From assembly GCA_022826045.1 (NCBI GenBank), contig JAJDVQ010000022.1, positions 1 to 64,000 on the forward strand: a stretch of 64,000 nt of DNA, written 5' to 3'. The notes beneath the pieces were generated by a model. The model ran no database searches, had not been told where the DNA came from, and saw only the letters and a list, made by a program, of their open reading frames with translations. This document shows, one piece after another, positions 10,507 to 46,735 of this stretch; the stretch's first letter is position 1; each line of letters starts with the position of its first letter. The position numbers and the translations under genes are program-made. This stretch comes from Acidimicrobiia bacterium. GTDB taxonomy: Bacteria; Actinomycetota; Acidimicrobiia; Acidimicrobiales; Poriferisodalaceae.

Positions 10507-10596
10507 CGCTGAGCTCCCATGTCGCTGGCTGTCATCCCTGTCTCAGGCATCCCTGTCTCAAGCCGGCGTCTCGCCTCGGCATCCCACACCGCAGTC

Positions 10597-27365: not shown

Positions 27366-27440
27366 CCCCGAGGCGATGCCCGACCGCCGCCGGCGCCGGG
27401 TAGCCGGTCGGAGTCGAGAGCGAGCGTTAGCGTCGCGCCG

Positions 27441-29906: not shown

Positions 29907-32900
29907 CTAGTCCTCGCTGAAGCCGGTGCCTTCCTCGAAGCCGAGAACTCGGGTGTTCTCGTTGACGTCGCGGACGAGATCGCCAGCGAAGCCTCCCGGC
30001 TTGCGGACTTCGACTTCGACTCGTACGACGACTTCTGCATCTGGGTGACCGATGAGATGGGTGAGCACATCGTCGCTGACCTGGGTGAATGCGCGGGTGG
30101 GGCGATCAGGGTTCAAGACAATCGACCCTCGAAAGACGCTGAGGGCTGGACGCGACGGATCCGTCTGAGAACCGGAACCCTCGCTTTCGTCGTCTGCACC
30201 ACCGCCGAAGTAGTCGTCTCCGCCTGAGGCGCCACCGCGGCCATCGCCCGAGTCGCCACCATCTCCGCTCGTCCGTCCAGCGTCGTCGCCCGCAGCTGCT
30301 TCACGGTCTCGCTCGTGCTGCTGCATCGCCAAGTCGGGATGAACAATGAGATGGGATGGCGTCACTGCCGCTGTTCGCTCCCCAGGCGGGCTCAGCCCCA
30401 AGTAGCGACCGGCCGCCTCGTCGTAGGAAACGGCGACGGCGAATCCTTCGGTCGTCCAAGCGATGCCCTCGGGGCCGCGTTCGACCGTGGACGTCAGCAC
30501 ATCCTGATCACGCAAGCGCGGCAGGTACACGTATCGCGCCATGTCTTCCCACAGCGCCGCTAGCGACATGTGGCCCTCCGCCCAGCGCGACGCCAGCACC
30601 CCGTCGAGTTGCTGCCGCAGCAGGACCGCTGGGAACTGCGCGCCCAGGCTGCCATCGTTCACGAGCCTTCGAGCAGCGTTCTCGGCTATGCGCGCCACGG
30701 GCTGCATCGCGCTGAGCTGATGGTCGCCGGCGCGCCTGCGGCCGTTCCGCTCGCCGGCCGCGCTGTCCGCGTCCAGTCTGACCACCTCCAACGTGACCGA
30801 TCCGCGCGGGTCTTCTTGCTGGGGAACCAGGAGGAAGCGGTAGGCCTCCGCTATTCGCAATCCAGTAGCCTGATCAGCCCGCTCGCGCTGCGACCGGGCG
30901 AGGTTCATCTGCTGGGCGTCGAGATTCAGGTCGTCTTGACGCGTACAGATGCCTTCCCAGGCCAAATACTCAGCGGCGGCCTGTTCCAGGGCCTCAGCGG
31001 CGCGCTGCTCAGCTGCGGCGAACACCAGCATGTTCCTGTATTGCCGCGGTCCAGCACCTCGCTGTTCGAGTATCTCTCGCGCCGTGGACACGGCGGGTGA
31101 ATCATCGGAGTTCAGCGTCAGTGTGGTCCCGGGTTCCAGAACCACCAGGCGCGCACGCGGCTCGTCAGCCACGTCGGCGCCGCTCGCCGGAGCGACGTGG
31201 ACGCTTGCGAATGTGTCGGCTTGCATGCCAACCCTGCCGATCCGCTCGCGGAGCCTCCTGACGATCTCAGCGTGCAACTGGAAACGGTCGCCCGAAAGCA
31301 GGTTCTCGATCTCGTCACGTGCGGTTCTCGTCACGTTCTGCTGCCGATCGAACCAGTACCGGTCGCGGTCGACGTACAGGTACGGCGCCTCCGCAGCGAG
31401 CCGGCTCAGCGCATCAGACACCGGACCCGATGGGTCGCCGACGAAGGTGGCCCCGAGACGTACGCGACGCAGATCCAAGCCTTGGTTCGGCCCTCCGACT
31501 CGGGGAGTTGCGCCGACGAAGATGGTCCGGGCAACCCGACGCGCCGCATGCAGCGCCCCCAGGTGAGGCGTTGCGCGGTCGATGCGCCCGGCATGCGAGG
31601 ACTGCCCGTCCACGTCAGAGTCGATGACCGGATGCCAGTAGTCAGGCAGCCGTCCGGCCAGCTCATTGACGACGCGGTCGTCGCCCAAGGGGATCGAGCA
31701 GGGCAGGATCAGGGGCGACTTGTCATCGCTCGCCCAGAGCGAGTCGATGGTTGCAGCCATCAGCCGAAGCACACCGCGAGTGCGCTGGAAGCGATCTATC
31801 GAAGACCAGTCCTGATAGAGCCGGTCGAACACTTCCGGGTGGATCGGATATGCCGCCTTGATGCGCTCGACGAACGCGATCTCGGAGCACTCGGAAGGGA
31901 AGTCGGCGCGCCGAGACCGGTAGAGCCGACCGAAGGCCTCTGCGGTTTCGTCCCGGTGCGCTCGCGCCTCATCGCTGAGCGGCTGGAAGAGCCGCCGACG
32001 CACGATCTCGTAGCTTTCGTCGCCGCTCGCGGGCTGCCAAGTCTCCGCAAGGCGGTTCGTGACATTGGTCAACCGCCGCAGCGCCTCCCGCCCGGCCGTG
32101 CCGCCCACCTCCAAGCTCGACACCGCGAAACTGTCCTCGTCGGTGTCGGCTTCCTCCGAAGCGGGTATGGACACCACGAACAGCGCCCCGTCAGTTGCCC
32201 TCGTCGCCTCCGAGAGCGTCTGGGCGAAGCTGAACTGAGAATCGAAGCTGCCGCCGGGCAGGTCGGTGCGCTCGTAGAGCTCGCGTGCGTAGGCGACCCA
32301 TTCGTCGATGAGGATCAGGCACGGCGAACACACAGTGAGCACGTCCCGGATCGCCTCGCCGGGGTTGGTGCGGTTGCGGTCGCTGTCGGCGACCAGCTCG
32401 TACGCCGCAGCACCACCGAGCTGCCACGCGATCTCGCCCCAGATCGTCTGCACCTCAGTGCCGTCGGACTTGGTGTGAATCTCACCGGCGCCGAAACGGT
32501 TGCCGACGACGACGGCGCAGTTCACTTCGGGCAGGTTGTCGACGCCGGCATCGCGAACCAGATTGACGATCTCCGCCGGCATCTGAGACAGGTCGAGGCC
32601 TGACATCAGGTGGTACAGCGCGATGAGACTGTGTGTCTTTCCGCCACCGAAGTTGGTCTGACAGCTGATGACCGGCTGTCCGCCTTGCCCCGACACACGC
32701 CTGACGGCGAGCGTGAGTAGGTCGCGCAACCCCGCCGTCAAGTAGGTGCGCTCGAAGAACCGACGCGGGTTGGCATATTCTTCACTGCCCTCGCCTCGGC
32801 GAACCATCTCCAGGTCGGCTGCGAACTCCGCAACGCTGAACCGGCCCGAGTGAATATCCGCATGGGGGTGGATCACCTCTCGCCACGGCCTCAACCCAGC

Positions 32901-33413
32901 CGGCACCGAATCCACCACGTTGAACACCGCGCCGGAGTTCTCGCTCTCGTCGGCGCGCTGCGTTCGTTCGTACTGTGTTCGGTTTAGGTCGTCGAGCAAC
33001 TCCTGCACGGCGGCGGCTTCGGAAGGCGCCACCGCTTCGATCAGCGTGACGATCCCGCTCAGCGTGTACTGCGCGTCGTGCAGCTGGAATCGCTTGTTGT
33101 GAGCCCACTCGTTGCGCTTGTCACGAAGCGTGAAGACAATGTTGCGAGCACCGCGTGGCAGCTGCCGCTCGAACCTGCCCTGCCAGCAGTCAGCAATCAC
33201 CCGCAGCAAGAACGCCGGGTCGTCCTCCGAGTACTCCCGCAGCGCCGGACGCGCCGTCGCAGCAAACGTCGCTGCCCAGTCCGCGCCGCCGCCAGCCCCG
33301 CTCGACATGTGCCGATCGACGAACGGGCGCAACACCCGAGCCAGTACCTCGAAGGCCTCCCCCACCCGCGCCCGATTGCTCATCTCAGCCATCGCTCGCA
33401 CCGACCTCTCCAT
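29907..33413 (-). CDS. Swt1-HEPN / DUF499 ATPase (Hma-type defence ATPase, HmaC-like)
   Basis: A very large ATPase of about 1168 residues. The N-terminal 130 residues resemble a Swt1-type HEPN domain, with RDKRNEWAHNKRF holding an R-x4-H motif (Arg100, His105). Walker A is CQTNFGGGKTHSLIALYHL (about 251-269) and Walker B LILIDEWVAYARELY, both as in DUF499 proteins. An acidic, Gly-rich low-complexity segment lies near residues 1040-1090. Starts at 33413, 33392 or 33383 are all possible. DUF499 ATPases accompany DUF1156 methylases and large helicases in anti-phage loci. Here the peptidase gene upstream separates it from the methylase. HEPN suggests RNA cleavage, but activity is inferred. Confidence 0.82.
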   Translation of the reverse strand: MERSVRAMAEMSNRARVGEAFEVLARVLRPFVDRHMSSGAGGGADWAATFAATARPALREYSEDDPAFLLRVIADCWQGRFERQLPRGARNIVFTLRDKRNEWAHNKRFQLHDAQYTLSGIVTLIEAVAPSEAAAVQELLDDLNRTQYERTQRADESENSGAVFNVVDSVPAGLRPWREVIHPHADIHSGRFSVAEFAADLEMVRRGEGSEEYANPRRFFERTYLTAGLRDLLTLAVRRVSGQGGQPVISCQTNFGGGKTHSLIALYHLMSGLDLSQMPAEIVNLVRDAGVDNLPEVNCAVVVGNRFGAGEIHTKSDGTEVQTIWGEIAWQLGGAAAYELVADSDRNRTNPGEAIRDVLTVCSPCLILIDEWVAYARELYERTDLPGGSFDSQFSFAQTLSEATRATDGALFVVSIPASEEADTDEDSFAVSSLEVGGTAGREALRRLTNVTNRLAETWQPASGDESYEIVRRRLFQPLSDEARAHRDETAEAFGRLYRSRRADFPSECSEIAFVERIKAAYPIHPEVFDRLYQDWSSIDRFQRTRGVLRLMAATIDSLWASDDKSPLILPCSIPLGDDRVVNELAGRLPDYWHPVIDSDVDGQSSHAGRIDRATPHLGALHAARRVARTIFVGATPRVGGPNQGLDLRRVRLGATFVGDPSGPVSDALSRLAAEAPYLYVDRDRYWFDRQQNVTRTARDEIENLLSGDRFQLHAEIVRRLRERIGRVGMQADTFASVHVAPASGADVADEPRARLVVLEPGTTLTLNSDDSPAVSTAREILEQRGAGPRQYRNMLVFAAAEQRAAEALEQAAAEYLAWEGICTRQDDLNLDAQQMNLARSQRERADQATGLRIAEAYRFLLVPQQEDPRGSVTLEVVRLDADSAAGERNGRRRAGDHQLSAMQPVARIAENAARRLVNDGSLGAQFPAVLLRQQLDGVLASRWAEGHMSLAALWEDMARYVYLPRLRDQDVLTSTVERGPEGIAWTTEGFAVAVSYDEAAGRYLGLSPPGERTAAVTPSHLIVHPDLAMQQHERDREAAAGDDAGRTSGDGGDSGDGRGGASGGDDYFGGGADDESEGSGSQTDPSRPALSVFRGSIVLNPDRPTRAFTQVSDDVLTHLIGHPDAEVVVRVEVEVRKPGGFAGDLVRDVNENTRVLGFEEGTGFSED

Positions 33414-33469
33414 GGCACATTGTCGGGAGCCACTTCATCCACAGCCGTGCAGAACCAGCACACTCGCAA

Positions 33470-34318
33470 TCAGAAGCGCAGCGATGCTCGACGGCCCTCG
33501 ATCATCGTCTCTTTGAATTGCCAGCCAAGCTCCACGACGTAGTTGACGTGAAGACTCCAGAGCATCTTCCAGTACTCTGACTCTGGTTCTTCGTAGACCG
33601 CTGGCAATCCGAGTTCTTGGGCATGACGATATCCGATAGTTGCTGAATGCATCGAAGGACCTTGAAGGCCTTGCGTCAGAGCTTCAACAAGCTCTTCTGA
33701 TGGGGGATTGCTTCGGATGCTGAGGACATCCGGCACCAACTCCTCCGTACGCAGTATGGATGCCCGTGCCGCTTGGTATGTCGCGCCGTCGATGTCTCCC
33801 AGTAATGCAGAATAAAACTCGAACGCTAAGGGATTGGACTGAGTGCGCTGTTCAAGGTCATCTACTATCTGAACCAGATCTTTCGCTGGATAGTAGGAAT
33901 TTCTTGTCGGTAGGAAGATCTGAGGGTCTACTGGACCCAAGGCCGAAGTGGTGCTCATGAGAATGGATTCAGCAGCGAGTGCCAACAGAGTGGCTGCCGA
34001 GGCGGCCGTTTCTGGCACAATCACCCGGAAGTCGGACCGACCTGCGTGGCACATCATTGCCAACCGCAAGGCTGTCTCCGCATCGCCACCCGGAGACGTA
34101 AGCATCAGGTCGAGGGGTGTATCACTTGGTATATCTCCAATGGCGTCTTGGAACGGTGCCACGACTGCATGGTGCATTGGGCCATAAAAGACCACAACCG
34201 CGCGTCCCGTCTCGTCCTCTATGTCGCGTAGTGCCTGTTGTCGCTCGTAGCGGTGTGCTTGAGTTGCCCGAAAGAACGGCGTGTGAACAACGCTTGCCGA
34301 AGAACCGTCATCGGACAT
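33470..34318 (-). CDS. ClpP/crotonase-fold serine peptidase of the SDH (serine dehydrogenase proteinase) type
   Basis: A 282-residue protein with a SppA/ClpP-like core. The oxyanion strand is LMLTSPGGDAETALRLAMM (residues 71-89). The nucleophile helix is ETAASAATLLALAAESILM, with Ser107 as candidate nucleophile. The following SALGPVDPQI is typical of SDH-family proteases. No signal peptide or membrane segment is seen, so it is cytosolic. The gene is distinctly A+T-richer than its neighbours. It overlaps the 66-residue gene upstream by 11 bases and precedes the DUF499 ATPase by 56 bases, i.e. it is inserted between the methylase and the ATPase of the defence locus. A protease effector or regulator is plausible but unproven. 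Confidence 0.8.
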   Translation of the reverse strand: MSDDGSSASVVHTPFFRATQAHRYERQQALRDIEDETGRAVVVFYGPMHHAVVAPFQDAIGDIPSDTPLDLMLTSPGGDAETALRLAMMCHAGRSDFRVIVPETAASAATLLALAAESILMSTTSALGPVDPQIFLPTRNSYYPAKDLVQIVDDLEQRTQSNPLAFEFYSALLGDIDGATYQAARASILRTEELVPDVLSIRSNPPSEELVEALTQGLQGPSMHSATIGYRHAQELGLPAVYEEPESEYWKMLWSLHVNYVVELGWQFKETMIEGRRASLRF

Positions 34319-34508
34319 GAAGCGGCTCTCGCGGAATCTTGAGCGGTTCTTCCGTGCGCCACTTGCGTTCGTCGGGTTCTAGCTCGGCATAGCGCTTGCG
34401 GATGCGTTCGGCGGCGTCTTCGCGGGCCTTGCGGGCGCGGGCGATGCGGTCGCGGAGTGATTCCTCGTTGCGGCGGGACTCCGGGATGAAGGGTGGGTCG
34501 TAGCTCAT
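34308..34508 (-). CDS. Small highly charged helical protein, 66 aa
   Basis: No family recognised. The sequence (SYDPPFIPESRRNEESLRDR, then alternating Arg/Ala/Glu to DERKWRTEEPLK) predicts a long charged helix, possibly a coiled coil. The start at 34508 is the methionine nearest the compositional onset. Its last 11 bases overlap the start of the SDH-type peptidase gene, so the two are translationally linked. This makes it a candidate adaptor, inhibitor or substrate of that peptidase. Confidence 0.6.
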   Translation of the reverse strand: MSYDPPFIPESRRNEESLRDRIARARKAREDAAERIRKRYAELEPDERKWRTEEPLKIPREPLHVR

Positions 34509-34817
34509 GGGGTGTTCCTTCGCTGGCGCTATTGGGTCGGTTGGGGTCGGGTTCGGCGTCACCGGTCGCATGGGGACCGTAGGCCATGGTCTACAGACTA
34601 CGCGGGGGGTGTGACCCGTCTGCTGCCGCGTGTATCGAGTGCAGGCCCTGCCTACTCGTCGGCGTCGCAAGGGGGACCAGCCGAACGGCGCAACCCCGGC
34701 CGTTTGCCGAAGCAGGGACGGTTCCGGGGCCTTCGCCTCGAATGCTACTCACCACAGGCTGTGCTGAGTCAGATTTCTGCACAGTAGCTTCGCAATGGCT
34801 TCAGGGAGCGACGACCG
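34509..34817. other. Non-coding break inside the defence island, with an inverted repeat at 34694-34729
   Basis: No convincing gene on either strand. CCCCGGCCGT (34694-34703) pairs with ACGG-TT-CCGGGG (34718-34729), an imperfect 10-base stem with a 14-base loop. It could be a transcription end or the scar of an insertion. The break may also hold the promoter of the 66-aa gene, peptidase and DUF499 unit, but no clear -35/-10 pair is visible. Confidence 0.4.
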
Positions 34818-35060
34818 ATGAAGATGGTCTCCGCCATGACACAGACGCAACACTCAAGCGATTCCGCGGTCCCGCATGACTGCGCCAAACACGCGGTCCG
34901 CGTGACCTTCATCAATGTGACGCCTGGCGACTACGACCCCGATGTCGCTGCAGCCTTCGGAAGCCTCGCCGCTCACTACGAGGAAGTTGCGGCGGATCTG
35001 TTCAACGACGACCCCGACCTAACCAGCCACATCGCACCCCAGAGCCTCGGCCAGCCCTGA
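34818..35060 (+). CDS. Hypothetical protein, 80 aa
   Basis: An open frame of 80 residues with no recognised family; the middle reads AVRVTFINVTPGDYDPDVAA and is followed by an acidic helix. AGGGAGC lies about 9 bases before the ATG at 34818, supporting translation; a second ATG at 34836 is possible. It is the only plus-strand candidate inside the minus-strand defence island, converging on the DUF1156 methylase. It may be a real small gene or chance. Confidence 0.35.
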   Translation: MKMVSAMTQTQHSSDSAVPHDCAKHAVRVTFINVTPGDYDPDVAAAFGSLAAHYEEVAADLFNDDPDLTSHIAPQSLGQP

Positions 35061-35163
35061 GCCCGGCGGCACAGAGCGCATGCTGCTCGTTCAGGCCGAA
35101 CTCGACGCCGCGACGCGCTGACGAGATCACCAGGACGCTGTGAGCAGACCCGGTAGTTGCGGG

Positions 35164-38079
35164 TCAGATGAGGGTGAGGTCGGTGGGGATTGTGGCTTGG
35201 CGGATGATCTCGGGCCAGGAGGTGACGAGGGCGTTGTAGGCCACGGCTTCGGGCTGCCAGCCTTGGCGCTCGCAGATGTGGAACAAGCGGTAGGCGAGAT
35301 CGCGCGGGGCATCGTCGATGACGCCAACTTGGGCCAGGAGGCCGGACGCTGCCTGCTCGCCGTCGCTCATCAGCTTGCGGCGCAGGTGAAGAGTGGTTTC
35401 CCAGACGGTCAGGCGCCGGTCGGTGGCCGGGTCCCAGTCCTCGTCGAGTTCGTCGACGGTCAGCAGGCGGCACTCGTTGCCCTGCTGCCACAGGATGCCC
35501 GCCTCCACGAGGCCTGCGATGGAGGTGTTCTTGGCCTTGCACAGCGTGTCTGCCTCGCCAGCGGGACCGCTGCCGTGACCGTGCTGCGCGTACCACGCCA
35601 GTGCCCAGCGGGTGTCGGCGTCGAGGTCAGCATCTTGCTCTTCGAGCACGGCGTCGAGGGCACGGTTGATCTCGGCCAGTGCATCACGGACCCTCATCGT
35701 GCTGCCGTCGAGCTCCACTACTCGTGAGTAGCGGGAGAACACGGCCATGCCCGGGCCGATGGACGACTGCGCCAAGTCAACCGGTGCGATGTTCTCGGCT
35801 TGCAGTTCAGCAAGCGCCTCCGGCAACTCGTTGCGCAGCGCAGTGAGGAAGTCGCGGCGGCTGACCACCGGAGCGTCGTCAGGCCGACGGCGACAGACCA
35901 GGATGATCGACGACGCGAGCGCAGCCCGCCCCACATCGCGGAGGCCTCCGGCTTTCTCGGTACGTATCGGCCAGGTCCGCACAATGGACGCGCCGCTGTC
36001 GAGAAGCCCTTCCAGCATCGTCTCCCAACCGGTGGATGCTGTACCCGAAGCATCGGTCTCGGACTGCTTGAACGCATAGAAGACGGTGTAGGGAAAGCGG
36101 TCGTCGTGAACGCTGCCAATCGCGCTGAAAGCCTGCTGCAGGCCGCGCTCGAAGAACTCGGCGGCTGCATCCCAGCCGTCGTGGCGGGCGGGCTCCGCGA
36201 TCAGCTCCTGCGCCTTGGGCACCTGCAGCGTGCGGAACAGGTCGGGATGGACATCAGCCAAGCTCTTCCGCAGCCAGATGTAGAAGAAATCGGACAGATC
36301 GGCGTACGGGATGTTGTCGTAGTACGGCGGATCGGTACAAACCACCACATCGGCAACGCGGTCGCTGATATCGCGGGCGTCGCGCTGGGTCGCGGTGCCA
36401 GCCGCGGCGGCGGGCACACGCGTCAAGGCTTCAACCAAGTAGTCCAGTTGGCCCAAGAAATTCCCGGAAGAAGTTGAGAAGGGGTTGCCCTCTGCGTACA
36501 CCCAGATCAGCGGCAGTGCAGTCCGAGCGAAAGTTTGCTCAATCTTCTCCCCTTGCGGGTTCCAGAAGCATGACGACGAGCTGCGGTTCGCGAGGCGACC
36601 GAGGGCGAGCGCGAGGTAGTGAGTGATGGCGTCGGCGTATGCGATAGGGCCGATACCGCCTTCGTGAAGTCGCAGCGCATCGCCTTCGATGCCTGCTGCC
36701 TCGGCGTCGGCGATGACCCTGTCGCGAACCTGCGGCAGGAGCGCGGTGAAGGCGCACATCGTGGTCAGCTGGCGGGGCGTGAACAGGTCCGACCAAGCCC
36801 GGATGCCGTATTGCGGCACGCGAAAGCCCAGCGCTTTGGCAGGAAGATCGCCGACAGGCGCGCCGTCGGGGATCGGGAGCCGCGACGCTTCGATGTGGTC
36901 CTGTGTGGCCTCGACGTAGGCGCGGCCTCGCTTGCCCTCGGCCACGATGCACAGCAGTTGCGAGCCCAGTCCACCCGCCTGCGCCAGTGTGCGGACATCT
37001 TTCAGCGGCACCGCTGTGCCACACACGAGGCAGGTCGCGCCCCGTCGGGTGACGGTGCCGCCCGACGGGCACCCTGCACCGTGGCGAACCCGGAAATGCA
37101 CGTGCGAGGTCGCCGTGTCGACCTCGGGTTCCAGCCACGCCTCGCGGTTGCGGCGCCGCGACAGGGCGTAGGAGTTCAGCAGCGGCATGCGTGCCTCGCA
37201 CGCCGGGTTGCTGCACGGGACCGTTCGAGCCCAAAGCCACGCGATGACGGTGGCGGCTTCATCGCCGGGGATCTCCACCGTCGGGTAGTGCTCGCCCACG
37301 CGGTCGCGAGCGAGATCCCTCAGCACGCCCCCGTAGTGCCGTACGTCCTCGGCCAAACCAGTCGCGCCCGGCCAGTCGTCGTCGAGATGCAGCGTCTGGC
37401 GGAACCGAGCGGTTGACGTCTCCGGTGGGGGCTGGCCCAAGCGTGCCCGGCCGGCTGTGCCATCGTCTGCGGGGCCGCGGGTCTCCGTCGATGCGGGCTG
37501 ACCGTGGCCGAGCGTGTCGGGCGAGATGTCGTCGGCTTTGCGAGACGCGAGTTGCTCGCTGATCGGCGTCTGGCCGGCGAACTTGGGCGGAATCTCGATC
37601 AGCGCCTTGTTGATCAGGACCGCCACCGGGTTGAGGTCACTGGCGTGGGCTTCCAAGCCGAGCCGTTGGGCCTCCAGCGGGATGCTGCCACCGCCCGCGA
37701 ACGGGTCGAGCACCGCAGGCAGTTCTCCGTCGCACGACCTGGCGATCTCGGCTCGGGCGGCGGCGAGGACGGCCTCGTCGGATGTGTTCTTCCACTGGAC
37801 CATGTCGGCGATGATCTTGAACAGGCGGTTCCGCTCTTCGTCTTGGTCCTCGTCGGTCGGGAAGCGGTCCGGGTGTGCGGACGGATCATCGACGAGCTGC
37901 GCGAACAGCACAGCCCGACAGGCGGCCAGCGGTCGGCGCGCCCACCACAGGTGCAGCGTGGACGGATGACCGTGGCGTATCGACTTCTCCTTCGCCGACG
38001 CCGCATTGATGGCATCGAGCGGCAGCGCAACCTCGATCAGCTTCTTCTTCACTCGGGAGACCTCGTCTCGCTGAATCAT
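35164..38079 (-). CDS. DUF1156 DNA methylase (Hma-type, HmaB-like)
   Basis: A 971-residue DNA methyltransferase. It opens with the DUF1156 block IRHGHPSTLHLWWARRPLAA (residues 35-54). The SAM motif LDPFAGGGSIPLEAQRLG is at about 124-141. Cys pairs in PCSNPACEARM and ATCLVCGTAV suggest a zinc ribbon. The catalytic motif DPPYYDNIPYADLSDFFYIW lies near residue 583. DPPY implies exocyclic amino methylation, probably adenine-N6. The start overlaps the stop of the helicase gene as ATGA. DUF1156 methylases occur in anti-phage loci with DUF499 ATPases and large helicases. It is the last gene of the overlapping block before the roughly 650-base break. Confidence 0.88.
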   Translation of the reverse strand: MIQRDEVSRVKKKLIEVALPLDAINAASAKEKSIRHGHPSTLHLWWARRPLAACRAVLFAQLVDDPSAHPDRFPTDEDQDEERNRLFKIIADMVQWKNTSDEAVLAAARAEIARSCDGELPAVLDPFAGGGSIPLEAQRLGLEAHASDLNPVAVLINKALIEIPPKFAGQTPISEQLASRKADDISPDTLGHGQPASTETRGPADDGTAGRARLGQPPPETSTARFRQTLHLDDDWPGATGLAEDVRHYGGVLRDLARDRVGEHYPTVEIPGDEAATVIAWLWARTVPCSNPACEARMPLLNSYALSRRRNREAWLEPEVDTATSHVHFRVRHGAGCPSGGTVTRRGATCLVCGTAVPLKDVRTLAQAGGLGSQLLCIVAEGKRGRAYVEATQDHIEASRLPIPDGAPVGDLPAKALGFRVPQYGIRAWSDLFTPRQLTTMCAFTALLPQVRDRVIADAEAAGIEGDALRLHEGGIGPIAYADAITHYLALALGRLANRSSSSCFWNPQGEKIEQTFARTALPLIWVYAEGNPFSTSSGNFLGQLDYLVEALTRVPAAAAGTATQRDARDISDRVADVVVCTDPPYYDNIPYADLSDFFYIWLRKSLADVHPDLFRTLQVPKAQELIAEPARHDGWDAAAEFFERGLQQAFSAIGSVHDDRFPYTVFYAFKQSETDASGTASTGWETMLEGLLDSGASIVRTWPIRTEKAGGLRDVGRAALASSIILVCRRRPDDAPVVSRRDFLTALRNELPEALAELQAENIAPVDLAQSSIGPGMAVFSRYSRVVELDGSTMRVRDALAEINRALDAVLEEQDADLDADTRWALAWYAQHGHGSGPAGEADTLCKAKNTSIAGLVEAGILWQQGNECRLLTVDELDEDWDPATDRRLTVWETTLHLRRKLMSDGEQAASGLLAQVGVIDDAPRDLAYRLFHICERQGWQPEAVAYNALVTSWPEIIRQATIPTDLTLI

Positions 38080-41000
38080 CGGCTGCTCCTCGGAGCGTCC
38101 GCTTGCCAGGCCACGCCAGCCTCCCGCGCATCACCGGTCACAGAGTTGGCCCCGGTGGCGTCATCGTGCGCCGCTGCGCTCGCAGCCGTGGTGCCGAACT
38201 CGCCTGATGGCACGCCGCGTGCCCACAGCGACGCCCAGTTGAAGTTGACGCTGGTCACCTCGAACATCTGGTCCTCCGAGCCCACATCGAGCGGACCCTG
38301 CACGTAGCGCACCCGGTCACGGTCTCCGTTGCCGTCGGCCGCCACTTCGACCAAGGCAAGAATCCAACGGTCGGGTTCGTTGAGGCTGGTGAGAATCTCG
38401 TTGCGGCTGACGGTGACCGTGGTTGCGCCAGCCAGCCGACCCTTGACCTCCAGGTAGCGGAAGCTGGTCACGGTGCCTTCGGTGCGGCTCGACCGGATGT
38501 CGAAGCCGGGGTGGTTAGGACGCTCTTCGTTGAGGTCAACCGCGTCCCACCCCATATCTGTCTCGGCGGCGAGCACCGCAGCTATGGCTCGGCGCTCAGT
38601 CTCCCGTTTCGACAACTGGTCGCCGACCGCAGCCTCAGGCTCGGCAACGTCGAGAACTTCAGGGTCTGCCGTCAGCCACTCGGCCAGCAGGCCGGCGGGC
38701 ACCACGAATGCGCCGCCCGCCACCCGCGGCGGCAGGGCGCTGACGGCTCGTTCCTGCTCCAGCGCTGCCAGCCGCTCTTTGAGACGCGCTTCGTACTCGT
38801 CGGCACGCCGGCGGGCGGTGTCGACGTTCATCTTGGGTACTCGGCCGGCATCCACATCGAGCTGCAACTGCGCTGCTCGGTTGTCCCAGTGGTTGATCTC
38901 CTTCGTCAGCCGTTGATGCACCGCTTCGCGGGTGCGCTCCACCCGTGCCAGCGTGCGCGCCCGGATAGACGCCAAGTGATCGGGTGCGGACACGTTGACG
39001 GCGTGATCCATGCCGAGCGTTTCCGCGCCGCGGCCCTCGGACTGCTGCCGCTCCACCAAGTGCCCCACTGCTGCGGCTTCGGCTTCAGTGGCCGGGCGGT
39101 AGTCCAGGTAGCGAGCGTGCGAACTGGTCGACGGCTCGCCGGTCTCCGGTATCTCCACGAACTCGAAGCGGCGGCTCACCACCGTGTGCGGCGCCCTCGC
39201 AGAGGGGCGGGCATCGGCCACCTCATGCTCGAGCATCACCATGACCCTCGGAATGGTTCCCGAGTCGGCATCGTCCACCAGCACCGCTCCTCGACGGATC
39301 TGGTCGCTGTGATGTTCGAGCGTCAGGTCGACCACGGCTTCGAGCAACGGATGGCCAGGCGCCAGCAGATCGGCGTCGGGCACGCCGGTGGCCTCGGTCA
39401 GGTCCTTGTCGAAGGTGACGCGCGTGTAGCGCTCCAGAACGGCGGGGGCGCCCCGAGCCGCGACTGAACGGCTGTGCTGGCGAACCGACAGCGGCACCCG
39501 GCGAATCTGGAACCGGCCCGGCTCCTTCTCCTGCATGGTGCCGCCCAAGTCGCCCAGCGCGGCCTCGAAGAACGCTCGCACGTAGTGGGGCTGGATGCGC
39601 CGCAGTGCTGCTTCGTCCATGTCGCGCCGGATGCGGTCCAGATCGGAGTAGCCGATCACCTCCGATGCCAGCACCGGGTCGGTGATGGCCGCCTCCACGC
39701 GGGCAGGCACGTCGGCGTCGATCACTTCGTCGAGTCGGCGTCGTACGTCAGGGCGGTCGCCGTAGCGAATGGCCTCGAGCAGCAGGCCGCGCAGCTCGCG
39801 GCCGGACAGCACTTCGCCGAGCACGTCGTACACCTGCCCGTCGAATGTCTCGCGCATCTGCTCGATCTTCTCCAGCAAGCGCACGTACACCTGCGCTTCG
39901 CGGGTGTCTTCGGCCACGAGGTTCCACATGTGGCACACCTCGGTCTGGCCGATCCGGTGGACCCGCCCGAAGCGCTGCTCGATGCGGTTCGGGTTCCACG
40001 GCAGGTCGTAGTTGACGACCAGGTGCGCCTGCTGGAGGTTGATGCCCTCGCCTGCGGCATCGGTGGCCACCAGCACCAGCACGTCGGGGTCCTGGGTGAA
40101 CCGGTGCTGGATGCGGCGACGCTCGTCACGGCCCGTGCCGCCGGAGATGTGGACAACTGCCTCATCGGAGCCCAGGAACGTCCGCAGCCGGTCAACGAGA
40201 TAGTTGAGGGTGTCACGGTGCTCGGTGAACACGATCAGCTTGCGCCGGTCGCCTGTGGGCGAGCGCATCTGCGGGGAGTCGCTGAGCGTGCGCGACAGCT
40301 GCGCCCACTTCGTGTCGGTGCCCTCGGAGCGCAGCCGCAGCGCCAGTTCCTCTAGCTGACGCAGCGTGTCCACCTCAGCCTCGAGCTCGGCGATGGTGGC
40401 CGCTGCTGTTGCGGCGTCCACCACTTCGGCATCTACTTCCGCCTGTTCGGACTCGTCGAGTTCGTCGTAGGCATCGGGGTCCAGCGTCGATGCATCGCCG
40501 TCGTCAGCGAGCAGTCGTGACAGGCGTTCTTCGCGGCCCGACATTCCCAGCCGGGCGGACCGAACCGCTTGCCGTTCTTCAGCGATCCGGGCCTCCAGCC
40601 GCCGGCGACGGCGACGCAGCGATTGGTAGATCGCTTCTGGCGACGATGCCAGCCGCCGCTGCAGCACGGTCAGCGCGAACCCCACGGTGTTGCCCCGTCG
40701 GCCGTCACCGCCTTCGCGCAGTCGATCCGCCGCATTCATCTGCTCGCGCACGTACGAAGTCACTTCGTCGTACAGCGCCATCTCTGCGTCGGACAGGTGG
40801 TACCGAATCGTCGTGGAGCGGCGTTCGGGAAACAGCGGCCGTCCCTCGAAGGTCAGCAGCCGCTCCTTGGTCATGCGACGCATGAATGCCGACGGGTCCG
40901 TCGCGTGGACGCCGTCGCGGAACCGGCCAGCGAACTGGTCGCCGTCGAGCAGAGCGCAGAACAGCTGGAAGTCCTCCTCCTTGCCGTTGTGCGGAGTTGC

Positions 41001-41864
41001 GGTCATCAACAGCAAGTGCTGCGCCGCCTCGCCGAGCAGTTCGCCAAGCTGGTACCGCAGCGTCTTGCGAATCTCGTCACCCCAGAAGTGCGCCGCCATG
41101 CGATGTGCCTCGTCGACCACCACCAAGTCCCACTCGCCACGACGCAGGTAGGGCCCGAGCTCCTCTTGTCGCCGGGCGATCTGGTCGACGCGGGCGATCA
41201 GCAGCCGCTTGCGCTCGAACGGGTTGATGCTGGCAACTCCGTCAAGGTCGTCCTTGGTCACGATGTCGAAGTGCAGGTCGAATTTGTCCCGCAGTTCTTC
41301 TTGCCATTGCGCCGTGAGGTTGCCGGGCACCACCACCAGCGCCCGCTCCAACGCCCCACGCAACATCAGCTCCTTCATGTAGAGCCCAGCCATGACGGTC
41401 TTTCCCGCACCCGGATCGTCGGCGAGCAGGAACCGCAGCGGCTGGCGCGGCAACATGTGCCCGTATACCGCCTCGATCTGGTGCGGCAACGGCCGCACCC
41501 GACTCGCATCCAGCGCCAAGTACGGATCGAACAGGTGCGCCAGCCGAATACGTCGAGCCTCAGCCGCCAACCGAAACAGCCATCCGTCCCCATCGAAGGT
41601 AAGCGACCCGCTGGTCCCTGGAGTCACTAGCCGGGGCGCCGATTCGTCGTCCCGAAATAGCACCCGCTCGCCCAGCGAGCCATCCCCTCGGCGATACGTC
41701 AGCGTGACCGCCTGCGTGCCATGCCATTGCACCGCCACCACCGTGACCGCCCCGCCAGGCTCCACCCCGAGCAACTCCGTCCCAGCGGCGATGTGCTCCA
41801 GATCCGCTACGGGCGATCTGTTGAGAGTGCCCTCGTTGCTCGCGATCGCCTCACCTGTGCTCAA
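38076..41864 (-). CDS. SNF2/DEAH helicase with C-terminal DUF3883 domain (Hma-type, HmaA-like)
   Basis: A 1262-residue SF2 ATPase. Q-motif-like PLPHQIEAVYGHMLP precedes Walker A ADDPGAGKTVMAGL (about 148-161). DEAHRMAAHF is at 251-260 and LLMTATPHNGKEEDF follows. The second RecA-like lobe has DAAGEGINLQQAHLVVNYDL and FGRVHRIGQ near 635. At the far C-terminus, FRYLEVKGR plus the EILTSLNEPDRWILALVEV segment is a DUF3883 (nuclease-fold-related) domain. Translation probably starts at TTG (41864), forming a TTGA overlap with the GHKL gene stop; no ATG precedes the conserved region. It would supply the DNA-translocating motor for the system. Confidence 0.87.
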   Translation of the reverse strand: MSTGEAIASNEGTLNRSPVADLEHIAAGTELLGVEPGGAVTVVAVQWHGTQAVTLTYRRGDGSLGERVLFRDDESAPRLVTPGTSGSLTFDGDGWLFRLAAEARRIRLAHLFDPYLALDASRVRPLPHQIEAVYGHMLPRQPLRFLLADDPGAGKTVMAGLYMKELMLRGALERALVVVPGNLTAQWQEELRDKFDLHFDIVTKDDLDGVASINPFERKRLLIARVDQIARRQEELGPYLRRGEWDLVVVDEAHRMAAHFWGDEIRKTLRYQLGELLGEAAQHLLLMTATPHNGKEEDFQLFCALLDGDQFAGRFRDGVHATDPSAFMRRMTKERLLTFEGRPLFPERRSTTIRYHLSDAEMALYDEVTSYVREQMNAADRLREGGDGRRGNTVGFALTVLQRRLASSPEAIYQSLRRRRRRLEARIAEERQAVRSARLGMSGREERLSRLLADDGDASTLDPDAYDELDESEQAEVDAEVVDAATAAATIAELEAEVDTLRQLEELALRLRSEGTDTKWAQLSRTLSDSPQMRSPTGDRRKLIVFTEHRDTLNYLVDRLRTFLGSDEAVVHISGGTGRDERRRIQHRFTQDPDVLVLVATDAAGEGINLQQAHLVVNYDLPWNPNRIEQRFGRVHRIGQTEVCHMWNLVAEDTREAQVYVRLLEKIEQMRETFDGQVYDVLGEVLSGRELRGLLLEAIRYGDRPDVRRRLDEVIDADVPARVEAAITDPVLASEVIGYSDLDRIRRDMDEAALRRIQPHYVRAFFEAALGDLGGTMQEKEPGRFQIRRVPLSVRQHSRSVAARGAPAVLERYTRVTFDKDLTEATGVPDADLLAPGHPLLEAVVDLTLEHHSDQIRRGAVLVDDADSGTIPRVMVMLEHEVADARPSARAPHTVVSRRFEFVEIPETGEPSTSSHARYLDYRPATEAEAAAVGHLVERQQSEGRGAETLGMDHAVNVSAPDHLASIRARTLARVERTREAVHQRLTKEINHWDNRAAQLQLDVDAGRVPKMNVDTARRRADEYEARLKERLAALEQERAVSALPPRVAGGAFVVPAGLLAEWLTADPEVLDVAEPEAAVGDQLSKRETERRAIAAVLAAETDMGWDAVDLNEERPNHPGFDIRSSRTEGTVTSFRYLEVKGRLAGATTVTVSRNEILTSLNEPDRWILALVEVAADGNGDRDRVRYVQGPLDVGSEDQMFEVTSVNFNWASLWARGVPSGEFGTTAASAAAHDDATGANSVTGDAREAGVAWQADAPRSSR

Positions 41865-43864
41865 ACTTGATCAACAATTCTCTGCACGGTCGCGAACTGG
41901 TCGCGCTTCTCCAAGAATTCGCTATACGCCTTGTTTGCTTTCGCAATAAGCGATTCGTAGTAGGCAACCCGGGAACCAGGTGAAATAGACTCCATGAGGC
42001 GTCGTAGCCGGTCAGGATTTTCGGTTTCTTCTGCAAGCGGTTCACCGAGTACAAAGACCACCTCTACGTTGGGGTATTTCTCTCCCTGTGCTGTAGCGAT
42101 CTTCTTTACTTTATCGACATACTTCGTACCTTGCTCAACAAGAGCGAGCACATTCACGTTGCGCTCAGCGCGCTTTAGTTCAACCACGACGTGCTTTCCA
42201 GCAATCGTTTTGTAGCAGATGTCAACTCGGCCCAGACGTTCCTTCTCGGTAAGGTCTTCGACGATTACTCCCTCATCGGCCAATCTAGATTCCATCCGTT
42301 CACTACCGTCGGCCCGCTCCCACGCAGGATCTAGCAGCCAAAGATGGTCAAACAAGTATTGTTGGAGAGCCGACTCCCGCGCGTTGTTGTCAATTGCCTG
42401 CATCAGCCCTTGAATGGCTTCGAGTCGAGAAGTGACGATATCCAAATACAGACTGGCCTCGTAGCTGTCTTGGTCTGCCAATAGACGCAGAAGCTTGTCG
42501 GCGTCGTCAACTGCCTCGGCGAATTCGGCTGTCATGCCACGCAGTCTCATGCGCTCAAAGGCATACATTGAGTGCTTGAGAAGTTCCTTACGATCATCAT
42601 CGGTTTCGAAATGTTGCCTTCCGATTCGACGGATCATCGACTCGGCTTGCCGCCGCGGTCCACTCCTTAGCGTCGTCAACCAATCGTTCAATGCCGGAGT
42701 GCGTTGGATGATGTCGTCTAGTTGCTGCTCGCCTCTCCATTCGGCCCAATCATCCTTGACATAGTTCAACATACGCTTGAGATGATCTCTAAGCTGGATG
42801 ATTCGCTCGTCATCCTCTTGAACACGCTGGCGATCGCTGGTCGCCAAGTCGACATCACCCTCTTTGTCTAAGAAATTGGCATTGATGCGACCTGTGATGT
42901 ACTTGGTATAGAGCCGTCCATCGCTAATGCTGTCCAAAATGTTCTCGTGAAACAGACGGCCACGTGCAAAAAGAACAACTCCGTTCAGGTTGCCCGCGTC
43001 GCGTGAACTGAGATCCGACGGTTTGTGTGCCGTTCCGATCCATCCGTCGATAATCCATGCGGGGTTCTCGGCCACGCGGTCGAACTCAATCTGCTTTTGC
43101 GTCTTCAGTTTCGGCAGATTGTCAGTCGCCTCGTCAAAGGATCCGATCGTCCAAAGGTACTCACAGGAGCGCAAGTCACCACGGTCATCGGCCGTGATGG
43201 CTTGACCGTTGATAGACATATTGAAATCATGCTGCATGCCTAGAATCGAGAAACGTCGGCTCAGTCGTTTTCGAAGAGCAGCAGCGGTGACGCCGAGTCT
43301 TTCGCTCTTGAGGTTGTTCAATGTGATTCGTGTGCCGACTTCTACCGTGATCTCGCTGTCATCGAGCGGGTCCGGGTGATATGGCTTGTTCCTGCCACTT
43401 GCTTCTCGAATGCCTTGACTGGTAAGCATGCAGCCATGACGTTCCCCATCCTTTGCTGATTGTATTCGGATGGTCTCGGCAATCGAGAACAACGACAGCT
43501 TGCCGAGTCCCTTGCGGCCCATAACAGGTCTTCCCAAGGCGGTACTGTCGCCAGTGTGCGTGTCGTCATCGCGTCGCGCATAGCCGACCCTCAGGTAACG
43601 ATTGTTCATATCATCCACAGTCATGCCAACACCGTCGTCCGTGATCACGATGGTGTCGCCCGCTTGATCAAGCTCAACACTCACGGTTCTCGCGTCGGCA
43701 TCCCACGCGTTCGCGACCGCTTCACTCAGCACTGCCGCGATGTTGCTGTAAAGGTTGATGCCGAGGTGCTCCACGACGACGAGATCAACCGTCATTTCGT
43801 AAGTGCTCACGGCCGATTTCTCTACGTCACGGTTTGGGCCACATGGCGATCTATGTTCGTTCAT
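41861..43864 (-). CDS. MORC/MutL-like GHKL ATPase with C-terminal nuclease-like domain
   Basis: A 667-residue protein. The N-terminal GHKL ATPase is complete: N-box EAVANAWDADA (residues 48-58), G1 box DDGVGM (76-81), G2 box MGRKGLGKLSLFSIAE (115-130). Helical middle. Around residues 555-600, GRVDICYKTIAGKHVVVELK has the D...ExK spacing of a PD-(D/E)xK nuclease, followed by a charged tail. Prokaryotic MORC-like GHKL proteins were reported within R-M-type loci (Iyer and colleagues). The start overlaps the Dcm stop as ATGA. The gene is visibly lower in G+C than its neighbours, suggesting separate acquisition. It may act as an ATP-driven DNA clamp and cutter; this is inference. Confidence 0.82.
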   Translation of the reverse strand: MNEHRSPCGPNRDVEKSAVSTYEMTVDLVVVEHLGINLYSNIAAVLSEAVANAWDADARTVSVELDQAGDTIVITDDGVGMTVDDMNNRYLRVGYARRDDDTHTGDSTALGRPVMGRKGLGKLSLFSIAETIRIQSAKDGERHGCMLTSQGIREASGRNKPYHPDPLDDSEITVEVGTRITLNNLKSERLGVTAAALRKRLSRRFSILGMQHDFNMSINGQAITADDRGDLRSCEYLWTIGSFDEATDNLPKLKTQKQIEFDRVAENPAWIIDGWIGTAHKPSDLSSRDAGNLNGVVLFARGRLFHENILDSISDGRLYTKYITGRINANFLDKEGDVDLATSDRQRVQEDDERIIQLRDHLKRMLNYVKDDWAEWRGEQQLDDIIQRTPALNDWLTTLRSGPRRQAESMIRRIGRQHFETDDDRKELLKHSMYAFERMRLRGMTAEFAEAVDDADKLLRLLADQDSYEASLYLDIVTSRLEAIQGLMQAIDNNARESALQQYLFDHLWLLDPAWERADGSERMESRLADEGVIVEDLTEKERLGRVDICYKTIAGKHVVVELKRAERNVNVLALVEQGTKYVDKVKKIATAQGEKYPNVEVVFVLGEPLAEETENPDRLRRLMESISPGSRVAYYESLIAKANKAYSEFLEKRDQFATVQRIVDQV

Positions 43865-44997
43865 CGCTGCTCTCCGGCTCGGCCGAGGTTCATCAGCAAG
43901 CTGCGACCGATAGATTCCCCGAGTGGCGGCGGGACAGCGTTGCCGATGTGACGGCCCAAGGTCGTCAGCGGCGCGGCTTCTCCCTGTGGAACGAACCGGT
44001 AATCCTCGGGGAAGCCTTGGAGGATGGCGGCCTCTCGCAGGGAGATGGTGCGGTGTTGTTCAGGGTGGCCGAAGCGGCCGGCGCCGAAGTTGTGGAAGTA
44101 GGTCGTAATCGTCGGGGACGGTCGATCCCATTGCATCCGGGCATACACGTTCTTGAACGCAGCCCCACTGGACCGCTGATGGCAGGGCGCCCGCAGTTCT
44201 GCCGGCCAATCGCGCCAGGTGCCGCCTGGCTTGGACGCAACCATTCGTTTGCGGTTGAGTGCCGATAGGCCGCGGCTTCGATGCACAGGATCGGTTTCAT
44301 GGGTATCGCCGGCACCGATGGGCGGCAGGTTCCCAATCGCTTGCTTGACGGTCTTGGCGGGACGGTCCCGCCAGTCTCCTTCCGGGACCGCGGCAGTGCC
44401 CAGCCGGGAGGCGACGAGCACGAGGCGGCGGCGACTCTGGGCGAGGCCGTAATCGGTGCACTTACAGATGTCGCTGTCCACGGAGTAACCGAGGCGATGG
44501 AGCATCTCGACGAAGTCACCGAACACGGTCTTGTCGTGAATACGGGGGACGTTCTCGGTGGTGACGAAGTCCGGCTGCGTCTCCTCTACGAGCCGACCCA
44601 GCTCCCGCAACAGCACCCATCGGTCGTCGCTCGACGGGCTGACGCCCTTGCGATACGACGAGAAGGGCTGGCACGGCGCGCATCCGGCCAAGAGCCTGAG
44701 CGAGCCCTCGGGCCACAGGACGGACAGCTCCTCCGCCGTGACATCGCGGATGTCGCGCTCAAGAAACTGTGCGGCGGCCACGTTGGCTTCGAAAGGGAAG
44801 CGGCAGGACCCGTCCACGTCAATACCCGCCACGACGTCGATGCCTGCCGCGGCCAGGCCGTAGGACAGGCCGCCGATGCCACAGAAGACATCGATGGCCG
44901 ATATGCCGCTCGTGCCTCGGGCCGCGGTCGTGCTGGGACTCGTCGGAGTCCGGGCTGCTGGGCAGTCCAAGATCGTCTGCTGCTCTTGCGCGGCCAT
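43861..44997 (-). CDS. DNA cytosine-C5 methyltransferase (Dcm type)
   Basis: A 378-residue C5 methyltransferase with motifs in standard order. Motif I is DVFCGIGGLSYGLAAAG (about 36-52), motif IV GCAPCQPFSSY with nucleophile Cys109, motif VI TENVP (147-151), motif VIII QSRRRLVLVAS and motif X GNAVPPPLGESIG. The variable region before motif X is the target-recognition domain. The start at 44997 has GAGGGAGC upstream; the longer frame from 45081 would overlap the preceding methyltransferase. It overlaps the GHKL ATPase gene as ATGA, so modification and a putative restriction function are coupled. Confidence 0.95.
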   Translation of the reverse strand: MAAQEQQTILDCPAARTPTSPSTTAARGTSGISAIDVFCGIGGLSYGLAAAGIDVVAGIDVDGSCRFPFEANVAAAQFLERDIRDVTAEELSVLWPEGSLRLLAGCAPCQPFSSYRKGVSPSSDDRWVLLRELGRLVEETQPDFVTTENVPRIHDKTVFGDFVEMLHRLGYSVDSDICKCTDYGLAQSRRRLVLVASRLGTAAVPEGDWRDRPAKTVKQAIGNLPPIGAGDTHETDPVHRSRGLSALNRKRMVASKPGGTWRDWPAELRAPCHQRSSGAAFKNVYARMQWDRPSPTITTYFHNFGAGRFGHPEQHRTISLREAAILQGFPEDYRFVPQGEAAPLTTLGRHIGNAVPPPLGESIGRSLLMNLGRAGEQR

Positions 44998-45046
44998 CAG
45001 CAGCTCCCTCGCGACATGCCTCGCCGGTCCGTCGCGGGTGTGGACT

Positions 45047-46735
45047 CTACGCCGAGCGGGGCCACGGCTCGTCTGCCTCAAGCCAGCTCGGCGGCGGGAC
45101 CATGATGCGTGCCATCTCGGAAGGCTCGAACTTGGTCAGGCCTCCCGCGTAGGTGCGTCCATCTGCGAGGACAGCGCGGTCACGCAATGCCTCCGTCAAC
45201 CTGCACAGTGCTGCCTCAGACAGCGGCTCGATCGGGTAGATGCCATGCACATTGTTGAGGTTGTGGACGGCAGCGAGGTTGCGCACGAATGCCGGTGGGC
45301 GTCGGGCCATGTAGGTGGCGAGAATCGGCGCGGGCGCTCGCAGCTTGACCGACCACCATTTCTTGCGGTGACGTGCGATGTAGCCATCGGCGACACCTGC
45401 TCGACGTGCTGTGTCCAAGAAGCGCTCCACCAGGCCGCGGTCGGCGGCGGCGAGATCGTCGAGATCTTCGGGCAGGCTGACCAGAGCCTTCAGATCGCTG
45501 CTGTCGGCCAATACACCCGATGCCATGCCGAAGAGCTCCAAGGCCTTCGTGACGGCAGGGTAGAGCACCGAAGCAGGCAGCCGCGGGTCGTTCTGCGAGG
45601 TCACCCATGTTGCGTTGGCACCGGTGGCCACCCCTCGATGCACGCGGCAGAAATCGCCGAGCGCGACGAAATCACCGGGAATCGACGCCTGCGGCGCCAG
45701 CAGTGTCGACCAGCGGCGCTCCCTGCGCAGTTCCTCGGGGCTGCAGCGTCGGCCCCCTGCCAAGCCCCGGAGTTCTTCGACTCGGTTAATCCTGCGGACG
45801 CGAATCGTGCGCTCTGGCCCGCCAACCTCGAAGGCAGTCACCGTCGCCGTCGTTGCGGCATCTGCGAACACCTGGGTTCGAGCGTCGAGGACATGCAGGG
45901 ACAGACCGCCGAGCGGCCCCGCGACCAGGTCTCGTGCCAGCTGCCCGTAGCCGACGTCCAGCCATTCTGACGAGGTGACGAATGCGCCGAAGTCGCCAGG
46001 GCGCGCAAGATGCACAGTGGCGAGCAGGAAGTGGACATGCAGGCCTGCCAGCGCCGATGCCTTGAGGTTCAAGTCCGCAGCGCGTTCTCGCAGCCACGTC
46101 TTCCATGCAGGGTCGATGTCGTGATGGCGCACGTAGGGCGGATTTCCGATGAAGGCCGTCGGGCCAGACGCGGGCGGCAGGTTCAGCGCGCGGTAATCGC
46201 CGACACGCAACTCGGCGCGCTTGTCGAAGCCCAGCACGGTCAGATTCGCCCGGGCCATCAAGGCAGCGAGCGGATCAATCTCGACAGCCACGAGGCGCGC
46301 ATCGGGAAGGCGTCGGCCGACGGCACAGAGGAACCGGCCAGACCCCGCACCAGGGTCAACGACTCGCGCGGCCCGCTTGTGGTTTGCCAGCCATTCCGTC
46401 ATGGGCTCGACGACTGCCGCAGGCGTGTAGGTCGCACCTCGCAGGCGACGCTGCGCCGCTGATCGCAGCGAGGCGAACGTCTCACCCAATGGGTCGTCCC
46501 CCGCCCGGATCGCAGCCGCCAGATCGCTCAGCGTGTTTGGCTGAGGCGAGGACGCCGCGGCCTTGATGAGCTCTCGCTCGGCACGGCTCACATCCGCGAC
46601 GCAGCCGGCGCGAGCCAGTGCCCAAGCCGCAGCACACAGGGCGCGCTCATCGCCCATCCCTTCGACGCCTGGCTCGGCAGGATCGGAGGACGTTGCGTTC
46701 GTCGAGGTCGTGGACACCTGCCCGAATGTTCGCAT
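45047..46735 (-). CDS. N6-adenine DNA methyltransferase (class I SAM, Eco57I/TaqI-like)
   Basis: A 562-residue methyltransferase. A helical N-terminal 100 residues precede GATYTPAAVVEPMTEWL. SAM motif I is VVDPGAGSGRFLCAVG (125-140), and VEIDPLAALMARANL follows. Catalytic NPPYVRHHDI is at 198-207. The motif order (I before IV) and NPPY are those of gamma-class adenine methyltransferases. The C-terminal half, with a KKWWSVKLRAPAPILATYM segment, is a TaqI-like recognition region. The start at 46735 follows AAGGGTG. It is the first gene of the defence operon and precedes Dcm by 49 bases. Confidence 0.9.
   Translation of the reverse strand: MRTFGQVSTTSTNATSSDPAEPGVEGMGDERALCAAAWALARAGCVADVSRAERELIKAAASSPQPNTLSDLAAAIRAGDDPLGETFASLRSAAQRRLRGATYTPAAVVEPMTEWLANHKRAARVVDPGAGSGRFLCAVGRRLPDARLVAVEIDPLAALMARANLTVLGFDKRAELRVGDYRALNLPPASGPTAFIGNPPYVRHHDIDPAWKTWLRERAADLNLKASALAGLHVHFLLATVHLARPGDFGAFVTSSEWLDVGYGQLARDLVAGPLGGLSLHVLDARTQVFADAATTATVTAFEVGGPERTIRVRRINRVEELRGLAGGRRCSPEELRRERRWSTLLAPQASIPGDFVALGDFCRVHRGVATGANATWVTSQNDPRLPASVLYPAVTKALELFGMASGVLADSSDLKALVSLPEDLDDLAAADRGLVERFLDTARRAGVADGYIARHRKKWWSVKLRAPAPILATYMARRPPAFVRNLAAVHNLNNVHGIYPIEPLSEAALCRLTEALRDRAVLADGRTYAGGLTKFEPSEMARIMVPPPSWLEADEPWPRSA

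Follow-up and report, generated by a model that had tools for sequence, protein, structure and literature searches.

We propose that two defense systems, a type II restriction-modification (R-M) cassette and an Hma system, are stacked at one chromosomal hotspot in a member of the class Acidimicrobiia (family Poriferisodalaceae; source genome 3.64 Mb in 104 contigs), and that they function separately, are sometimes transferred together, and have undergone a swap of the restriction gene, an account that we consider likely. The DNA analyzed, hereafter the window, comprises 64,000 nucleotides (positions 1 to 64,000 of contig JAJDVQ010000022.1) and contains an eight-gene array on the minus strand that extends from 46735 down to 29907 and encodes, in order, an N6-methyladenine methyltransferase (m6A MTase), a Dcm-type C5-cytosine MTase, a GHKL ATPase, HmaA, HmaB, a small charged protein, an SDH peptidase and HmaC. 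An earlier note on this DNA, made from the sequence alone, had read the region as one composite system in which two architectures are merged. This is not supported, as genomes of one genus may carry only one of the two modules at this site. The combination of a GHKL enzyme with Hma is a variant on known systems, and stacking in Hma loci is itself already in print for Septu.

The hotspot is bordered on the left by a CoA-transferase gene (26883..29900, plus strand) and on the right by a CinA-like gene (47639..48139, plus strand). An orthologue of the CoA-transferase, 81-91% identical, stands at the site in 10 of the 11 genomes of the genus, the window included, and the eleventh (G667 in our numbering, 84% complete) has only CoA-transferase paralogues of 47% identity or less. 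Three of the sites are empty (G481, G535, and G668), with the border genes some 35 bases apart, and both systems occupy the site in the window and in G664, where no match to the small protein or the SDH peptidase was found. In G635 the site holds Hma (HmaA 95%, HmaB 87%, small protein 69%, SDH peptidase 56%, and HmaC 98% identical to those of the window) and the cassette is absent, and in G445 it holds the m6A MTase, Dcm, and GHKL genes without Hma, followed by a CoA-transferase fragment and then by an additional m6A MTase that is paired with a XamI-type restriction enzyme. The latter kind of pair is also found at the site in G558. Two further sites lie at contig ends: that of G665 has, besides an m6A MTase/XamI-type pair and the terminal part of a further m6A MTase gene, the SDH peptidase (97%), the small protein (82%), and Dcm (83%), and that of G666 has HmaC (97%) and part of the SDH gene. 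Since Hma occurs without the cassette (G635) and the cassette without Hma (G445) at one site in one genus, the modules are separable, which points to two systems. At the edges of the Hma insertion in G635 the 3' end of the CoA-transferase gene is repeated over 117 bases, and a tRNA-like sequence (L089, 7332-7405) is present, the latter found among four stretches scanned. Integrase-driven mobility was also considered and was rejected, as no integrase is present among the 10 flank proteins scanned.

The array recurs both inside and outside the genus. Its gene order, which the earlier note had proposed to seek in other genomes, is found in G664 and, over two contigs, in G263, a member of another family of the same order. 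Contig C48 of G263 encodes the m6A MTase (63%), Dcm (74%), GHKL (38%), and HmaA (86%) and ends inside HmaA, and contig C9 starts inside HmaB (81%) and continues with the small protein (86%), an internally deleted SDH gene, and HmaC (73%). This array is at a different site, with a single weak match to a window flank (34% over 134 residues) beside the C48 part. The same gene order in other genomes argues that the array is not a chance arrangement, and as both systems are together in G664 and, at another site and in another family, in G263, they would sometimes be transferred as a linked unit. The earlier note had reasoned that the region would be two neighboring systems if Hma loci never carried the cassette and the cassette stood alone elsewhere; the first part does not hold, given G664 and G263, but the second does, given the lone cassette of G445.

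In a sample of 298 genomes of the order, to which G664 does not belong, HmaB is found at E <= 1e-60 in 39 genomes and a GHKL gene above the family cut-off in six (eight genes, two of them beside HmaA). Two of the other six genes (L142 and L147) are on contigs of about 4 kb, a neighborhood too short to judge. Another of the six belongs to a second Dcm-GHKL pair of the source genome (L015 on G000 C39, 1453-4549), which is 45% and 35% identical to that of the window and is not accompanied by Hma; at a distance of some 4 kb a helicase match is present but weak (28.6%, 92 bits). Two more Hma loci include another pair of this kind: that of G647, distant in sequence (GHKL 26%, Dcm 30%), is situated between HmaB and HmaC, and that of L243 comes after the HmaC of a divergent Hma set. 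On plasmids, five Hma loci, each with HmaA, HmaB, and HmaC, were examined of 56 records found, and none has a GHKL, Dcm, m6A MTase, SDH, or small-protein match at E 1e-3 within 11 kb or up to the record end; in one of them (L260) HmaA and HmaB are separated by a further gene. The two systems might then be chance neighbors in a defense island, transferred without linkage, a reading in keeping with the clustering of defense genes and with the GHKL match above 60 bits in just one of the 40 Hma stretches fetched from the order, some of which are cut by contig ends and which do not include the window or G263 C48. However, the order m6A-Dcm-GHKL-HmaA is present in two families with different flanks, and we regard chance association as very improbable.

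The restriction gene has been replaced between the window and G664. While the other proteins compared are 87% (m6A MTase), 94% (Dcm), 94% (HmaA), 88% (HmaB), and 98% (HmaC) identical, the GHKL proteins are only 38% identical. Of the segment around the GHKL gene (41795..43915, minus strand), blastn aligns just one 74-base piece (75.7%) to the syntenic G664, and the adjoining blocks are 90.5% and 93.4% identical. In 200-base steps, nucleotide identity to G664 is 96-100% between 45300 and 44101, a stretch that covers the end of the m6A gene and most of dcm. It drops to 82% at the dcm 3' end and, with gaps, to 44-62% in the GHKL gene; at the start of hmaA it is 70%, and beyond that 80-98% and mostly above 90. 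The GHKL proteins of G664, G445, and G263 are 80-85% alike and 38-39% identical to that of the window, and the window Dcm is 73-74% identical to those of G445 and G263. In a GHKL tree of 92 rows (three of 80 loci dropped for a stop in the matched stretch; the GHKLs of G647, G616, G572, G579, and G056 excluded) L186 is the partner of the window (support 100), and the two belong to a 32-row set (99) that comprises 21 DISARM, seven R-M, one Hma (the window), and three unlabeled rows; G664, G445, and G263 fall elsewhere, in a clade of 10 rows (100) that are mostly actinobacterial. In a Dcm tree of 69 rows, from which loci were left out when their Dcm match was missing, weak, short, or interrupted, the window groups with G664, G665, G445, and G263 (100/100), and the neighbors of this group are five loci that also stand beside G664, G445, and G263 in the GHKL tree (99/94). 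By these trees the window Dcm appears to belong with the ancestral actinobacterial cassette and the window GHKL with a DISARM-rich clade, and the straightforward reading is that the lineage of the window retained its Dcm and would have received a foreign GHKL allele. The GHKL gene is the most variable of the array between the window and G664, as it might be had it diverged fast in place under phage pressure, but such divergence is hard to reconcile with the likeness of the other three alleles across two families, with the placement of the window allele beside L186 and apart from their clade, and with the sharp edges of the identity profile, and we give it hardly any credence. Low G+C of the GHKL gene was tried as a sign of recent import and rejected, the genes of the window, G263, and G445 all being low (0.515-0.533).

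The GHKL protein (41861..43864) scores 772.2 bits with NF050001, the NCBIfam model of the BbrUII/HgiDII restriction enzymes (cut-off 550), which covers nearly its full length. In a 52-row alignment its GHKL motif residues (E48, N52, D55, D76, G78, G80, G116, K118, and G119) and the C-terminal PD-(D/E)XK residues (D548, E562, and K564) are invariant. The predicted model of the full protein (mean predicted local distance difference test, pLDDT, 78.9; predicted template modeling score, pTM, 0.59) matches Hsp90-type chaperones and MORC2/MORC3. The C-terminal 203 residues, modeled separately (mean pLDDT 73.4), have no structural match at an E value of 0.001 or lower; the top one is a viral RNA polymerase chain (5.4e-3), followed by the Shedu and Nt.BspD6I nucleases, and hence the nuclease fold is suggested mainly by the motif and by the description of paraMORC3, GHKL ATPases with a C-terminal restriction enzyme fold in R-M loci with superfamily II helicases and Dcm (PMC2292703). 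The GHKL and MORC likeness of the original description therefore stands, as does the statement that R-M loci of the GHKL type are known from print, but the protein exceeds the NF050001 cut-off and is thus a predicted restriction enzyme of the BbrUII/HgiDII type II family, and MORC proper is defined with a family motif in the S5 domain (PMC2292703). The proposed clamp role is half right, since the protein additionally bears a nuclease motif, and the conserved PD-(D/E)XK motif led us to reject a MORC clamp without nuclease.

Given the NF050001 score and the PD-(D/E)XK motif, we take the m6A MTase, Dcm, and GHKL genes to be an R-M cassette. The C5-cytosine MTase gene (43861..44997; PF00145 172.9 bits, TIGR00675 above cut-off; a longer TTG-start reading reaches 45081) directly precedes the GHKL gene, as in the BbrUII/HgiDII systems, and Dcm is probably the modification enzyme of the cassette. 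The window differs from these systems by an m6A MTase before Dcm and by a restriction enzyme allele from another clade than its Dcm. This m6A MTase (45047..46735; NPPY motif; PADLOC MTase_II PDLC03222 596 bits; Pfam Eco57I and N6_Mtase) is 68-70% identical to the MTases that adjoin XamI-type restriction enzymes in G445, G558, and G665. M.HgiDII places 5-methylcytosine at GTCGAC (PMC5867850), and by family membership the cassette target is probably the same site. If that site is shared with the XamI-type MTases, the m6A MTase and Dcm would set two host marks on one site. XamI cuts GTCGAC; our literature search found no paper that links the two.

The Hma core, with its HEPN and DUF3883 parts, had been named correctly, as judged by PADLOC protein models, scanned singly and without system rules, and by Pfam. 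HmaA (38076..41864, TTG start) is an SNF2 helicase with a C-terminal DUF3883/NOV_C domain (PF13020, PF00271) that scores 1421.6 bits as HmaA (PDLC00659) versus 388.4 as DrmD and 207.2 as DrmA, and an ExK-like stretch at 1122-1141 agrees with a C-terminal PD-(D/E)XK nuclease of predicted activity. HmaB (35164..38079; PDLC00660 1086.6 bits; PF06634) is a DUF1156 N6-MTase with a DPPY motif at 583, and HmaC (29907..33413; PDLC00662 872.3 bits; PF18731, PF04465) is a DUF499 AAA+ ATPase that includes the optional, Swt1-like HEPN domain. The order HmaA, HmaB, HmaC and these domains are those of the printed Hma or Type-1 BREX-related systems (PMC8565338, PMC12839542), from which the window differs by cargo between HmaB and HmaC and by an R-M cassette directly upstream. 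The usual layout has the three genes only; here the HmaB-HmaC interval of about 1.75 kb is occupied by the small charged protein (34308..34508, about 66 amino acids, likeliest start 34508; 69% in G635, 82% in G665, and 86% in G263) and the SDH/ClpP-like serine peptidase (33470..34318; PF01972 65.7 bits). These appear to be optional cargo, the peptidase having no match in G664 and being internally deleted in G263, where the gene (L176, 956-1438) is without its middle, including the stretch that contains SAAT in the window. Nucleases near or inside Hma and Type-1 BREX-related loci have been reported (PMC12839542), and the main text of that paper, by word search, mentions neither GHKL, MORC, SDH, nor ClpP. 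The stacking noted for Septu in Hma loci (PMC12255303, PMC8565338) is of the same kind, but with Septu inside Hma (PMC12255303) rather than type II R-M upstream, and the neighboring helicase, which in paraMORC3 loci accompanies a GHKL protein with a C-terminal ExK motif and Dcm (PMC2292703), is in the window the HmaA of a complete Hma system. Among the matches listed, no paper with the GHKL-Hma combination was found by title or abstract start. Shortened Hma-like remnants were also seen (L009 on C90 and L010 on C8), one an HmaA with internal losses and one an HmaA start beside an HmaB end and one third of HmaC, and L011 (C18) has divergent HmaA, HmaB, and HmaC relatives together (33, 25, and 26% identical), perhaps a second BREX-related system.

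The linkage described in the earlier note is read directly from the sequence: five minus-strand genes joined by a 49-base gap (m6A MTase to Dcm) and three four-base stop/start overlaps (ATGA, TTGA, and ATGA, from Dcm through GHKL and HmaA to HmaB), followed after about 650 bases (precisely 655) by the small charged protein, the peptidase, and the Swt1-HEPN/DUF499 ATPase; its three MTases in a single same-strand array are likewise borne out by their domains. The 655-base gap 3' of HmaB contains an 80-amino acid acidic open reading frame on the plus strand (34818..35060), with relatives in G664 (65%) and G665 (73%); eight further stretches were searched at E 1e-4 without a match. Elsewhere in the window, a type III R-M-like pair, an N6_N4 MTase (960 amino acids) and a ResIII protein (1100 amino acids), is found at 476-6522 on the minus strand, and there are three large family III CoA-transferase paralogues within 34 kb (18297-20780, 26883-29900, and 49088-51661), with more across the genus.

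The wider GHKL family was surveyed through the 80 loci that best match the query, which come from a capped candidate list and are not a random sample. Scanning contigs with the window GHKL sequence alone yielded no confirmed relative; an alignment-based scan found relatives. In 44 of the 80 loci Dcm is within 600 bases and the fetched stretch holds neither DISARM nor Hma; for 15 of them, less than 8 kb of sequence is available on one side. Another 27 loci contain two or more of DrmD, DrmMI, DrmA, and DrmB, with DrmD, an SNF2 helicase, present in 21; one has Hma and eight have none of the Dcm pair, DISARM, or Hma. The GHKL gene of the DISARM loci is between DrmMI and DrmA and within 1.5 kb of both in nine and between the two but further from the best-matching piece in 10; four lack DrmMI or DrmA in the fetched stretch and four have another order. 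L184, for example, reads DrmMII-DrmD-DrmMI-GHKL-DrmA-DrmB, with the GHKL gene at 9938-11944. The window itself shares with the DISARM loci, 21 of the 32 rows of its GHKL set, a nearby SNF2 helicase and MTases, but with the best 25 models considered for HmaA and Dcm, none of the eight array proteins has a DrmB or DrmC model to complete the DrmA, DrmB, and DrmC set. No DISARM-GHKL restriction enzyme link was found in the literature, as judged by the abstracts of papers naming both terms. Among plasmid GHKL loci, Dcm adjoins in six of the seven read (of 18 records found). The m6A MTase has no match above 80 bits in any of the 80 loci, and hence it may have been added in this order of bacteria only.

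It is conceivable, if unlikely, that the GHKL nuclease acts as a replaceable effector for SNF2-helicase systems, with one clade working for DISARM through DrmD and for Hma through HmaA, and that a DISARM-type allele, once brought into the Hma-linked cassette, retools the effector against phage inhibitors with the Dcm mark and self-recognition unchanged. A single composite machine, with the GHKL enzyme and HmaA on a common DNA track and the three MTases as layered self-marking, could likewise account for the four-base overlaps, for the joint recurrence in G664 and G263, for the further GHKL-Dcm pairs in the Hma loci of G647 and L243, and for the frequent company of DISARM genes and DrmD. Yet either module can be found by itself at this site within the genus, the 44 Dcm-GHKL pairs have neither partner system in the fetched stretch, the GHKL-HmaA overlap is not kept in G664 or G263, and the GHKL gene was replaced with little change in hmaA past its start, all of which makes such a machine rather improbable.

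We therefore return to stacked systems that function separately. The modules, their synteny, their separability and recurrence, and the allele replacement are seen in the sequences. The target site and the order and route of events are inferred, as are the activities, those of Hma by homology to a printed reading in which Hma is R-M-like, its N6-MTase self-marks, its DUF499 ATPase scans, its helicase-nuclease cuts, and its HEPN domain is the last resort (PMC12839542). In the cassette, Dcm and probably the m6A MTase would mark host DNA at the cassette site, and the GHKL-PD-(D/E)XK enzyme would cut DNA that is unmarked, with engagement of the DNA probably gated by its ATPase. In Hma, HmaB would mark host DNA with m6A, the AAA+ protein HmaC would sense unmarked DNA and assemble on it, HmaA would translocate, and its DUF3883 nuclease would cut, with the HEPN domain as a last-resort RNase and the small protein and peptidase being dispensable. 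The modules would have been gained and lost at the site, at times moving together, and recombination in dcm and hmaA would have exchanged the GHKL allele with Dcm retained, such that both alleles should tolerate the same Dcm modification.

Several points weigh against this account. The best PADLOC model for Dcm is DrmMII (297.4 bits), followed by MTase_II (270.9 bits). GTCGAC is not specially avoided, with 126 sites seen versus 162.8 expected (rank 31 of 64 palindromes) over 148,908 letters of the organism's own DNA, separators included, and such counts neither support nor oppose it as the target. The GHKL tree was built by a quick method with support from the Shimodaira-Hasegawa approximate likelihood ratio test (SH-aLRT) only, several of the compared assemblies are cut at contig ends, and the join of G263 C48 to C9 is inferred. 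That the specificity was kept is a deduction, namely that Dcm must still protect the cell and both GHKL alleles should hence respect the same mark, and some functional link between the systems is still conceivable, given their joint recurrence in two families.

The closely similar arrays of the window and G664 nevertheless represent a natural experiment, in which the modification gene is shared and the restriction genes are only 38% alike. If both alleles are active, their comparison would reveal the site-reading residues of a little-studied, ATP-binding restriction family and would show whether restriction genes can be swapped under a constant modification gene. The empty, single, and double occupancy of one site within a single genus likewise makes the gain from stacking Hma on R-M testable.

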